The notes under the pieces are model-generated. The model was not told the DNA's origin and did no database searches. It worked only from the letters and a program-made list of their open reading frames with translations. The translations under genes were made by a program, and so were the position numbers. This document shows, piece by piece, positions 12,536-39,684 of a DNA stretch of 64,000 bases. Origin of the DNA: Hyphomicrobiales bacterium (GTDB lineage: Bacteria; Pseudomonadota; Alphaproteobacteria; Rhizobiales; Rhizobiaceae); contig UCLB01000025.1 in the NCBI GenBank assembly GCA_900473205.1, positions 1 to 64,000 of the forward strand, given 5' to 3'. Position 1 is the stretch's first letter. Each line of letters begins with the position of its first letter.

Positions 12536-14245
12536 TCAAAACAGGAAGTAGCGCTGTGCCATTGGCAGAACTGTCGCCGGTTCGCACGTCAGAAGCTCGC
12601 CATCGGCCCGAACCTCGTAAGTCTCGGGATCAACCTCGATATGCGGTGTCAGCGAATTGTGGATCATCGACGCCTTTGAGATCCCGCCGCGCACATTGCG
12701 CACCGCAAGCAACTTCTTGGCAACGCCCAAACGCTGCACGATCCCACCATCCAGCGAGGCCTGCGAAACGAAGGTCACGGAGGAGTTGGTGCGCAGCTTG
12801 CCATAGGCGGCAAACATGGGGCGGTAATGCATCGGCTGTGGTGTGGGAATGGACGCATTGGGATCCCCCATCGGGGCCGCGGCAATCGAGCCACCCAGCA
12901 GAACCATTTCCGGCTTTACGCCGAAAAAGGCCGGGTTCCACAGCACCAGATCGGCACGCTTGCCGACTTCGATGGAGCCGATTTCATGGCTGATGCCGTG
13001 AGCGATGGCCGGGTTGATCGTATATTTCGCGATGTAACGACGAACACGAAAATTGTCGTTCTCGCCCGTTTCTTCCTTCAGGCGACCGCGCTGGCGCTTC
13101 ATCTTATCCGCCGTCTGCCATGTGCGGATGGCCACTTCACCCACACGGCCCATGGCCTGACTGTCGGAAGAAATGATCGAGAAGGCACCGATATCGTGCA
13201 GAATATCTTCAGCGGCAATCGTTTCCTTGCGGATGCGGCTTTCCGCGAAGGCGATATCTTCCGGTATCGATGGCGACAGATGGTGGCAGACCATCAACAT
13301 GTCCAGATGCTCCGCCAGCGTGTTGACCGTATAGGGCCGCGTCGGATTGGTGGACGATGGAATGACGTTGGGGTTGCCGCAAATCTTGATGATGTCAGGT
13401 GCGTGGCCGCCGCCCGCGCCTTCCGTGTGGAAGGCGTGGATGGTGCGGCCATTGATGGCCGCAATCGTGTCTTCCACGAAGCCGCTTTCGTTCAGCGTAT
13501 CGGTGTGGATCATCACCTGCACGTCGAAGGCATCGGCAACGCTCAGGCAATTGTCGATGGCAGCGGGCGTCGTACCCCAGTCTTCATGCAGCTTCAGCGA
13601 GGACGCGCCCGCAAGGATCATCTCTTCCAGCGGTTTGGGCAGCGAGGCATTACCCTTGCCTGCCAGCGCGAGATTCATCGGAAAAGCATCGAAGCTTTCG
13701 ATCATCCGCTCGATGTGCCATGCGCCCGTACAGGTGGTGGCCAGCGTGCCATGAGCCGGGCCGGAACCACCGCCCAGCATGCAGGTCACACCGCTCATCA
13801 GCGCTTCTTCAATCTGCTGCGGGCAGATGAAATGGATATGCGCATCCATCCCGCCAGCGGTCAGGATTTTACCCTCACCGGCAATCGCTTCCGTGGAAGG
13901 GCCGACGATGATGGTCACACCCGGCTGCGTATCCGGATTACCCGCCTTGCCGATGGCGTGAATGCGACCATCCTTCAAACCGACATCCGCCTTGTAGACA
14001 CCGCTGTGATCGACAATGACGACATTGGTGATGACCGTATCGACCGCACCCTCCGCCCGCGTCGCCTGGCTCTGCCCCATGCCATCACGAATGACCTTGC
14101 CGCCGCCGAATTTTACCTCTTCGCCATAGGTGGTGAAGTCCTTCTCGATTTCGATGAAGAGTTCGGTATCGGCAAGACGCACCTTATCGCCCACTGTGGG
14201 GCCGAACATGCTGGCATAGGCTGCGCGGGAAATCTTGTAAGGCAT
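12536..14245 (-). CDS. ureC: Urease alpha (catalytic) subunit UreC
   Basis: A 569-aa amidohydrolase carrying the di-nickel centre that hydrolyses urea to ammonia and carbamate. The ATG at 14245 (AAGGAG at good spacing, [17 protein letters not shown]) is the family start; the frame is open 57 codons farther but that stretch is unrelated. Visible motifs are HIHFICPQQ (first metal histidines), K218 in [10 protein letters not shown] (carbamylated bridging lysine), and [13 protein letters not shown] with the catalytic flap histidine. All key residues are intact. Confidence 0.98.
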
Positions 14246-14292
14246 GGAAATCAGACTCCTTGGGAGGCGGAGAAAACAAAGGCAGCGATCAA

Positions 14293-14730
14293 TCAGAAAC
14301 CGTCGGCAAGAGCGCGAAGTTCTTCGGCGCGTTTCGTGCTCATATCGGCAAGGCAGGACGAAACGAGCATCGGCTCCATGGTGCCGCCACGCGCCTGAAA
14401 GCCTGCCGCTTCGCAATTGGCATCGCGGAAGGAGACCCAGGCACGCTGCGCAGCAACCACCGCCTCGACTGCGCCCTTGCTGTCATCGTCAGCGGCCTTG
14501 TCCCAGGCACTCATCTTCTTGCGAACCTGCTGATAGGCGACATTCAAATCCTTGTCGGCAGCTTCGTATTCAATCGCAGCGCAGGCGTTCATATCCGCTT
14601 GCGTCGTTGGCGAGTCGCAATCCGGCTCTTCCTGCGCCCTGGCGTCATGAAGAGCGACGGAAGAAAACAGGCCCGCGCACAAAAGCACAAGACCGCATGA
14701 AAAACGTGGCATCACGCTGCTGCCCCACAT
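14293..14730 (-). CDS. LprI-like (DUF1311) secreted protein
   Basis: A 145-aa protein with a signal peptide ([20 protein letters not shown], cleavage near ARA-QE) and the mature pattern [15 protein letters not shown]...DLNVAYQQV, ending in [11 protein letters not shown]. This is the LprI/DUF1311 family, some members of which inhibit lysozyme. Four cysteines could form two disulfides in the periplasm. The first ATG overlaps the upstream stop (TGATG); an internal ATG at 14712 would give a tighter signal peptide. It sits between ureB/GFA and ureC, with no known part in urea hydrolysis. Confidence 0.8.
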
Positions 14731-38424: not shown

Positions 38425-39327
38425 TTAAACCTTCTCGACTTCCGGACGGCCCAGAATACCGGTCGGCTTGAAAATCAACACGAAAGCGAGAATTCCGAAG
38501 GCTGCGACGTCCTTGTAGGCGATGGAGAAATAGGCAGACCACAGGCTTTCGATAAGGCCGATGAGCAAACCACCCAGCACCGCGCCCGGAAGCGAACCGA
38601 TGCCACCTAGAACAGCCGCGGTGAAAGCCTTGACGCCCGGAATGAAGCCGTCGTTGAACGAGGCAACACCGTAATACATCAGGTACATGGAGCCTGCGAC
38701 GGCTGCCAGCGCAGCACCCATGACGAAGGTGATGGAAATCGTGCGATCAACGTCCACACCAAGAAGTGCCGCCATCTTGCGGTCCTGCTCGGTTGCGCGC
38801 TGTGCACGGCCAAGCGGCGTCTTGTTGACGATATACCAGAAGGCGAACAGCAGAACCGACGTGATGACCACGATCAACAACTGCTTCAGCGAAATGGTGA
38901 TGGCGCCGAAGTGATACACCTCTGTCACCAGAGTCGGAATCGGCTTGTTGCGCGGGCCCTGCGTCACCTGAATGAAGTTGGACAGCGCAATCGACATGCC
39001 GATGGCCGTAATCAGCGGCGCAAGGCGGAAAGAACCGCGCAGAGGGCGGTAGGCCACACGCTCGATTGCCCAGTTCCACAGGCCGGTCATCAGCATGGCG
39101 ACGACCATCATCACCAGAAGCAGAATTGCAACGGGAATGCCTGCAAAAAACGATGTGAGAATAAGGAAGACGATCAGGGCAGCGAAGCCGCCGAGCATGA
39201 AAATATCGCCATGGGCGAAGTTGATCATGCCGATAATGCCGTAAACCATCGTATAGCCAATAGCGATAAGGCCATAGATCGATCCAAGAGTCAGCCCGTT
39301 TATGAGCTGCTGGATAAAGTACTCCAT
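38425..39327 (-). CDS. livH: Branched-chain amino-acid ABC transporter permease LivH
   Basis: A 300-aa permease beginning MEYFIQQLINGLTLGSIYGLIAIGYTMVYG, with GMINFAHGDIFMLGGF and the coupling-loop segment GRAQRATEQDRKMAALLGVDV. It is the first gene of the liv operon. Its Shine-Dalgarno (GGGGGA, six bases before the ATG) lies in the descending arm of a strong leader hairpin, suggesting translational control. Confidence 0.95.
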   Translation of the reverse strand: MEYFIQQLINGLTLGSIYGLIAIGYTMVYGIIGMINFAHGDIFMLGGFAALIVFLILTSFFAGIPVAILLLVMMVVAMLMTGLWNWAIERVAYRPLRGSFRLAPLITAIGMSIALSNFIQVTQGPRNKPIPTLVTEVYHFGAITISLKQLLIVVITSVLLFAFWYIVNKTPLGRAQRATEQDRKMAALLGVDVDRTISITFVMGAALAAVAGSMYLMYYGVASFNDGFIPGVKAFTAAVLGGIGSLPGAVLGGLLIGLIESLWSAYFSIAYKDVAAFGILAFVLIFKPTGILGRPEVEKV

Positions 39328-39333
39328 ATCTTT

Positions 39334-39403
39334 CCCCCGGACCTACTCTCAACGGAACAGGTCTCGTTTATGTTGATTCCGGGGGCTGCATTTTTTGTCC
39401 CCC
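39334..39403 (-). promoter_or_regulatory. livH leader: SD-sequestering hairpin with competing upstream arm
   Basis: Read on the minus strand, the order is GGGGG (39403-39399), CCCCCGGA (39385-39378), TCAAC (39376-39372), GTTGA (39353-39349), TCCGGGGG (39341-39334), then the livH ATG. CCCCCGGA can pair perfectly with TCCGGGGG, reinforced by TCAAC/GTTGA, burying the livH SD. Alternatively CCCCC can pair with the upstream GGGGG and free the SD. These pairings are mutually exclusive, the architecture of a translational switch. Confidence 0.6.
39368..39391 (-). CDS. Putative 7-codon leader ORF upstream of livH
   Basis: An ATG at 39391 reads MQPPEST and stops with TAA (39370-39368). It is preceded by AAGGGGGA at 7-base spacing, a better ribosome site than many real genes here. 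Its codons cover the anti-SD arm CCCCCGGA, so a ribosome on it would release the livH SD. The peptide has no Leu, Ile or Val, so it is not a classical attenuator peptide. Translation is unproven. Confidence 0.4.
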   Translation of the reverse strand: MQPPEST

Positions 39404-39684
39404 TTGGTTGAAATCCATATCGCGTTCAGGCGAAATGTGAAGTCAAAAATCTGTAAAACAGCTTTTTATTTGGAATTTCCACATTGAATGCTTCCTCAGC
39501 ACTCACAACGATCATAATTTTGGCAGAAACTGCCACAAAAAGCGCCTCATCATCGCAAAATCCTGCCAAGCGCCCTCTATTTTCATGCCTGCGCCAGAAA
39601 CCGGTTGCGTTGTAAATTGCGCTTTGAAAGCTTATGTCGTTTTCGTCGGAACGACGCGTCCGGCCACCGGCAAAAGGGACATCG
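39404..39684. other. Divergent intergenic region between livH leader and cysQ
   Basis: It should hold the promoters of both the liv operon and cysQ. AT-rich tracts occur around 39455-39545. No repeat or RNA gene is apparent. An ATG-initiated extension of cysQ from 39634 lacks a ribosome site and is not favoured. Confidence 0.4.

Follow-up and report, generated by a model that had tools for sequence, protein, structure and literature searches.

A covarying hairpin beside the livH Shine-Dalgarno sequence in Rhizobiaceae, with a predicted competing leader fold in a few lineages

Results

In the window, by which we mean the whole 64,000-nt stretch of DNA analyzed here, the list of open reading frames (ORFs) gives the minus-strand order livH-livM-livG-livF-(169 aa ORF)-livK, with liv gene names that we assigned from the protein sequences. 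Presumably a braD-like permease gene, livH is the first gene of the operon (38425-39327, minus strand); its ATG begins at 39327, and its leader occupies the gap from livH to a divergent ORF whose start is at 39634. We take this operon to correspond to Atu2427-Atu2422 of A. fabrum C58 and to resemble the agrobacterial Atu2422 / rhizobial liv/bra system that imports branched-chain amino acids and GABA. Among the best 80 of 572 livH matches, Agrobacterium supplied the nearest named relatives, and LivK of S. meliloti is called homologous to Atu2422 in one report (PMC3712013). Elsewhere in the window, an Rfam match to RF02514 (5' ureB sRNA) at 13804-14093 on the plus strand lies antisense to a urease alpha-subunit-like ORF (12536-14416, minus strand) and may reflect conserved coding sequence instead of a real sRNA.

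Upstream of the leader, a putative promoter (39417-39446, minus strand) comprises TTGACT (39446-39441), an 18-nt spacer and CGATAT (39422-39417), as judged by position and by a block seen in relatives' leaders. Since a consensus scan of the leader region gave no sigma-70 promoter match, we infer both the promoter and the transcription start, which would be near 39416-39411. The block, resembling TTTTTGnCTTCACATTT, recurs at 39417-39446 in the window and at the same place in most of loci L001-L080, among them loci of named Agrobacterium, Rhizobium, Neorhizobium and Ciceribacter; it is more than a -35 box seems to require and may be an operator. From its 5' side, the minus-strand leader carries GGGGG (39403-39399), which is the 5' arm of a hairpin P1 and also a Shine-Dalgarno (SD)-like sequence ahead of a possible 7-codon upstream ORF, MQPPEST* (39391-39368). 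This ORF overlaps CCCCCGGA (39385-39378), which by sequence, pairing and folds serves as the P1 3' arm (CCCCC) and as an alternative anti-SD arm. A conserved A-rich linker, AACATAAACGAG (39374-39363), follows between P1 and a second hairpin, P2, with the final G of the linker being the first base of P2. The latter comprises GACCTGTTC (39363-39355), the loop CGTTGA (39354-39349) and GAGTAGGTC (39348-39340), and as its helix ends at 39340, a single nt (39339, the C of the SD) separates it from the G-run of the livH SD, CGGGGGA (39339-39333).

The initial annotation had proposed mutually exclusive hairpins in this leader, built from GGGGG (39403-39399), CCCCCGGA (39385-39378), TCAAC (39376-39372), GTTGA (39353-39349) and TCCGGGGG (39341-39334). 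The order and coordinates of these minus-strand elements were as described, the complementarity of the arms was correct upon recomputation, and TCCGGGGG does include the livH SD (CGGGGGA, 39339-39333). The two folds are indeed exclusive in the window, with near-equal predicted energy: with a start at 39416, the fold with P1 and P2 and the anti-SD fold were each predicted at -27.6 kcal/mol, while a start at 39414 gave -26.6 vs. -27.6 kcal/mol; constrained ensembles for the 39416 start came to -29.55 for P1 plus P2 and -30.03 for the anti-SD fold, with a saddle at -13.3 kcal/mol. Given these near-isoenergetic and exclusive folds, the prediction for the window is a bistable leader, the predicted share of the anti-SD state at 37 C being 0.74-0.86. 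In equilibrium folds of growing prefixes, which are not a kinetic simulation, P1 and then P2 appeared, both earlier than the anti-SD fold. The stability of the whole region was ordinary (z -1.05), with 32 of 200 shuffles folding at least as well. No terminator was found in a scan of the leader, and an RNA thermometer was rejected because the predicted opening of the window SD (0.17 at 20 C, 0.10-0.18 at 28 C and 0.04-0.07 at 42 C) goes in the wrong direction.

For comparison with relatives, we collected 180 livH loci, comprising the best 80 of 572 matches in genome contigs, a further 30 loci from 61 genomes, another 30 from 247 genomes of the family (113 with a match) and 40 more chosen by hand from the family list, so that 70 of the 114 matches in the family were used. 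A start was obtained in 173 of the 180 loci (the start-codon pattern failed in L021, L032, L035, L051, L056, L067 and L077), yielding 139 unique leaders, with leaders containing N left out. Of these, 24 are without an assigned start and are absent from the counts of SD openness, P2 randomizing, P2 stability and upstream ORFs. Alignment A2 holds 30 leaders of Agrobacterium and close kin, with rows picked by eye; it omits L107, a leader of the window's genus that has P2 without such a C-run. Alignment A3 holds 112 leaders of the family.

P2 (39363-39340), to which the initial annotation made no reference, is the sole helix of this leader with strong comparative support. Where gaps of 0-25 nt were allowed, the longest upstream helix ended 1-2 nt before the G-run of the SD in 103 of 139 leaders and 0-3 nt before it in 113 of 139. 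With a gap of 0-3 nt imposed, an unbroken run of 6 or more pairs was present in 104 of 139 leaders vs. 9.8% of 2,780 dinucleotide shuffles; among the other 35, 22 have 5 pairs and 13 have 2-4 pairs, and in six of these 13 (L010, L014, L061, L064, L071 and L104) a helix with one C/A mismatch is otherwise kept. The arms are diverse (GATGCGG/TCGCATC, GGCCGGA/TCTGGTC, GGTCTGA/TCAGACC, GATATGA/TCATATC, GACACAAT/ATTGTGTC and GGAATG/CATTCC), the loops measure 5-32 nt (32 being the set limit) with no conserved sequence, and P2 is predicted above 0.5 in 85 of 105 leaders. On the SD side, the columns of A3 are invariant or nearly so.

Of 136 genes with an SD in this genome, 24 carry a helix at that place that is 6 or more pairs long; since the position alone is not rare, a single instance means little and it is the conservation that is rare. 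A P2-type helix was seen in 0 of 18 scorable leaders from outside the family (20 leaders fetched of 79 matches). In this genome, a covariance model of P2 plus SD matched only livH at E <= 5 (917 candidates, 150 scored), and a dispersed element was therefore rejected. Over 297 genomes of the order, the model gave 11 matches, ten of them in the family (eight at livH starts, the others being L189 and L192), while the eleventh, L193, is from outside the family and shows no livH start in three forward frames over 240 nt read; this order-wide scan says little on absence because its strict filters missed leaders that exist. No Rfam family matched P2 or the leader at gathering score in the window and the loci of 20 relatives, and a permissive threshold added only a weak chance match.

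Covariation was then scored helix by helix. In A2, P2 had 96.7% paired cells, 46 double-change cells and a covariation score of 0.637, each reached by 0 of 500 shuffles, with slid controls at 24-45% paired. In A3, the corresponding values were 82.6%, 135 and 0.513 (again 0 of 500 for each), with slid controls at 19-61% paired and 19-49 double-change cells; the P2 counts here are lowered because the GGAATG/CATTCC rows are about two columns out of register. The number of P2 pairs with any double change was 5 in A2, equalled by 402 of 500 shuffles, and 7 of 7 in A3, where 129 of 500 shuffles reach 7, and one A3 slid control was richer in pair types than P2 (24 vs. 23). Parsimony on a livH tree that takes in 77 of the 112 A3 leaders assigned P2 39 double-change events, 38 one-sided changes that kept pairing and 25 losses, compared to 1-7 double-change events in six slid controls. 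This comparison shows P2 to be a selected RNA secondary structure, because the two arms vary in step even as the sequence and the loop drift; compensatory pairs and a fixed place by the SD, as would mark a conserved cis-acting structure, were both found.

The pairings of the proposed switch fared differently, in that its arms failed by the refuting condition of the initial annotation itself. In A2, CCCCCGGA:TCCGGGGG was 74.2% paired: the outer four pairs are possible in all 30 leaders and the fifth in 25, but the inner three are lost in 19, 17 and 21 of 30 (kept in 9-13). Its five double-change cells all fall at the fifth pair (34 of 500 shuffles), and its score was reached by 2 of 500. TCAAC:GTTGA was 66% paired in A2, with no double change and no covariation. 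P1 had 95.5% standard pairs in A2, with no double change and no covariation beyond shuffles; a group comprising L007, L011 and L096 has GAGGG/CCCTC in place of GGGGG/CCCCC, one column off, amounting to at most one P1 event. RNAalifold on A2 draws a CCCC:GGGG(SD) helix closing over P2, which decides little because both strands are near-invariant, as P1 and the SD alone would give.

Among the A2 leaders, the predicted closed state exceeds 0.5 in seven, namely the window, L001, L003, L006, L008, L061 and L064, with L061 and L064 belonging to another group beside five of the window clade; it is 0.32-0.36 in L073 and L084, and at most 0.14 in 21 of 30. The nine window-clade leaders were predicted to range from 0.13 to 0.95. 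The anti-SD helix was thus rejected as a conserved element, given its lost inner pairs, the unsupported TCAAC:GTTGA and a closed state in few leaders. Across 115 leaders, mean SD openness was 0.41 vs. 0.37 with a shuffled 5' part (P = 0.22), so that SD closure, being no different from shuffles, was rejected as a family property. Upon randomizing of the P2 5' arm in 105 of the 115 leaders, predicted SD openness went from 0.39 to 0.30 (P about 1e-5), a modest drop that 64 of the 105 leaders show. For several clades, folding predicts a closed SD even in the presence of P2, through a 5'-terminal AAUCCCC. In clades other than that of the window (L034, L036, L042, L047, L137 and L148), the segment predicted to pair with the SD is the 5'-terminal AAUCCCC, AAUCUCCC or AAUCCUCC, so that the same SD would be closed by a different route. 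The bistability of the window, where the C-run of P1 reaches the SD, looks like a lineage-specific by-product or addition.

With regard to an unpaired core of the riboswitch type, the P2 loop varies, but in every one of the 30 A2 leaders P2 is preceded by the linker AACAT(A)nACGAG, a segment that is rich in A across the family. In the window, AACATAAACGAG is conserved although unpaired in the fold with P1 and P2, and GAG preceded by AA, AC or AT lies ahead of P2 in 101 of 139 leaders; this conserved linker leaves room for a bound factor. Of the marks of a metabolite riboswitch, no known class matched and exclusive SD-closing folds are not conserved in relatives. As for the upstream ORF, ATG CAG CCC CCG GAA TCA ACA TAA (39391-39368) lies downstream of GGGGG and shares bases with the anti-SD arm. 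An ORF of the form MQPP..T* is found in 11 of the 115 start-assigned leaders (the nine of the window clade, L013 and L092), and 19 of the 30 A2 leaders are without it. The rarity of this ORF, its lack of branched-chain codons and the absence of a terminator speak against a leader-peptide attenuator.

Discussion

We classify P2 as a structured cis element at the translation start, based on its exact position and strong covariation. Our preferred reading, held tentatively and at somewhat less than even odds, is that P2 is a translation-initiation hairpin that limits pairing of the SD, in an insulating or presenting role. With a 3' strand that stops 1-2 nt before the G-run of the SD in family livH leaders, P2 would occupy the RNA just 5' of the SD and restrict which upstream sequences are able to close the G-run; it may also offer the 30S subunit or SD-targeting sRNAs an SD in a constant context. 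Its job at translation initiation is one that we infer. Upstream, the hairpin P1 and C-rich segments differ between lineages, and in the window and a few relatives the C-run of P1 can extend its pairing to the SD, in competition with P1 and P2, which would make the leader bistable. As a two-way switch is possible in these leaders but not conserved, the hairpin is the part worth testing.

Ranked next to this insulating or presenting role, though distinctly less probable and in our view unlikely, is binding of a regulator, with P2 and the linker being the site where a trans-acting factor lands or has the SD presented to it (Hfq together with an AbcR-type sRNA, ribosomal protein S1 or an RNA-binding protein), such that the SD is exposed to an anti-SD sRNA or the hairpin itself is bound. 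The A-rich linker kept before P2, throughout A2 and in its shorter form more widely, is in keeping with such a site, as are two AbcR (ar15) sRNA genes, L181 and L182, which lie near each other in this genome and both carry C-rich stretches. The transport genes whose expression rises in S. meliloti when hfq is lost are reported to include livH, M, G, F and K (PMC2848018), and AbcR1 of this species is reported to repress livK via its ribosome-binding site (RBS) (PMC3712013); action of AbcR1 at the livK RBS is also described in PMC8844928, the liv operon is listed under Hfq-controlled uptake (PMC3484140), and Hfq is reported to bind atu2422 mRNA in A. tumefaciens (PMC4201532). However, the AbcR1 evidence as given in PMC3712013 concerns livK and not livH, a crude duplex score for AbcR1 that does not consider accessibility gives 79 of 136 genes a rank equal to or higher than that of livH, and the P2 loops differ in length and sequence. 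We find it doubtful, more so than regulator binding by itself, that P2 and the linker form a family-wide RNA element acting as a handle (for Hfq and sRNAs, an RNA-binding protein or the ribosome), to which a competing C-run, possibly gated by the upstream ORF, would add a true bistable switch in the window and some relatives. We regard with comparable doubt the idea that P2 is mainly an mRNA-stability hairpin, one that guards the 5' region against degradation and whose position next to the SD is secondary. Hairpins in 5' leaders can stabilize mRNAs, and P2 is a stable local hairpin of free sequence and conserved structure, as judged by a stability comparison biased in favor of this idea because the segment was cut at the best helix. 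Nevertheless, P2 is not at the inferred 5' end of the mRNA (leaders of 75-114 nt), and its gap of 1-2 nt to the SD in most leaders points to initiation rather than stability.

As for the leader switch of the initial annotation, a structured leader at the SD and two competing folds in the window have held up, but a conserved switch has not. That Leu/Ile/Val or some other signal makes the leader toggle between P1, with the SD free, and CCCCCGGA:TCCGGGGG, with the SD closed, now seems improbable to us. The window folds are isoenergetic and exclusive, the outer four pairs are possible in every A2 leader, RNAalifold draws CCCC:GGGG over P2, the closed state is predicted in two groups and a conserved linker precedes P2, all in line with a switch; weighing against it are the inner pairs lost in 17-21 of 30 leaders, TCAAC:GTTGA without support, a closed state that is low in the majority of A2, no Rfam match and no conserved P2 loop. 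More improbable still, by a little, is that in the window group ribosomes on MQPPEST*, with GGGGG as its SD, cover CCCCCGG and block the anti-SD pairing, thereby opening livH. While the SD-like GGGGG is plausibly spaced, the ORF is kept in 11 leaders with differing spacers and one CCG/CCA change is synonymous, the ORF is missing from most of A2, the anti-SD state is 0.01 in two of its 11 carriers (L013 and L092), L061 and L064 are predicted to be closed without it, MQPPEST* has no Leu, Ile or Val codons, and changes in the peptide are not clearly constrained.

Among known systems, we take rhizobial leader-peptide attenuators (e.g. trpL) to share with the window a short ORF before a metabolic operon; the ORF of the window differs in having no branched-chain codons, no terminator and a presence in only 11 of 115 leaders. 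The livK RNA motif (RF01744) is likewise a candidate structured RNA, taking its name from a gene for branched-chain amino-acid transport, but it is listed for Pseudomonadales in the account we cite (PMC2864571), and its covariance model gave no match above gathering score in the window and the loci of 20 relatives. A candidate motif of marine alphaproteobacteria that lies upstream of rhtB, and some copies of which precede livM and livK (PMC2704228), is similar in host group and in nearness to liv genes; unlike P2, about half of its copies are then followed by a U-run suggesting termination (PMC2704228), and the comparison here was through Rfam only. Regulation of livK/Atu2422 by AbcR1/AbcR2 (ar15) resembles our case in acting after transcription, at an SD that belongs to the same transporter system in rhizobia and Agrobacterium, but there a trans-acting sRNA acts on livK whereas P2 is a cis hairpin on livH, the first gene of the operon. 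SAM-II of S. meliloti metA is a rhizobial leader in which RNA structure sets access to the SD, but it belongs to a known SAM-binding class (PMC9373788), in contrast to the livH leader, which is without an Rfam match. Among the open-licence papers searched, no title or abstract describes a conserved hairpin at livH/braD in rhizobia, nor do the cited portions of the Hfq/AbcR literature describe a livH leader structure. The main text of a C58 ncRNA survey with 20 5' UTR leaders contains no atu2422, atu2427 or 'branched' (PMC3738593), and a paper on S. meliloti start sites makes no mention of livH (PMC3616915).

Hfq and AbcR are known to regulate the liv system at livK. A covarying hairpin that abuts the SD of livH, the first gene, suggests that control is also exerted in cis, at a second level of which the cited portions of this literature hold no description. 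With its natural compensatory variants, the livH leader offers a clean test case for an SD-abutting hairpin. Should P2 and the linker indeed serve as a handle, they would set the synthesis of the main importer of amino acids and GABA.

A last observation pertains to the variants of P2. It is GGAATG/CATTCC, or nearly so, in L164, L166, L167, L169-L173, L176 and L178-L180, in which the distance from SD to start is 12 nt; we would guess these leaders to be Mesorhizobium- or Brucella-like. In several leaders, e.g. L166, L169, L172 and L179, a second SD-like AGGGGAAAT lies about 10 nt before P2 and could be a standby site.
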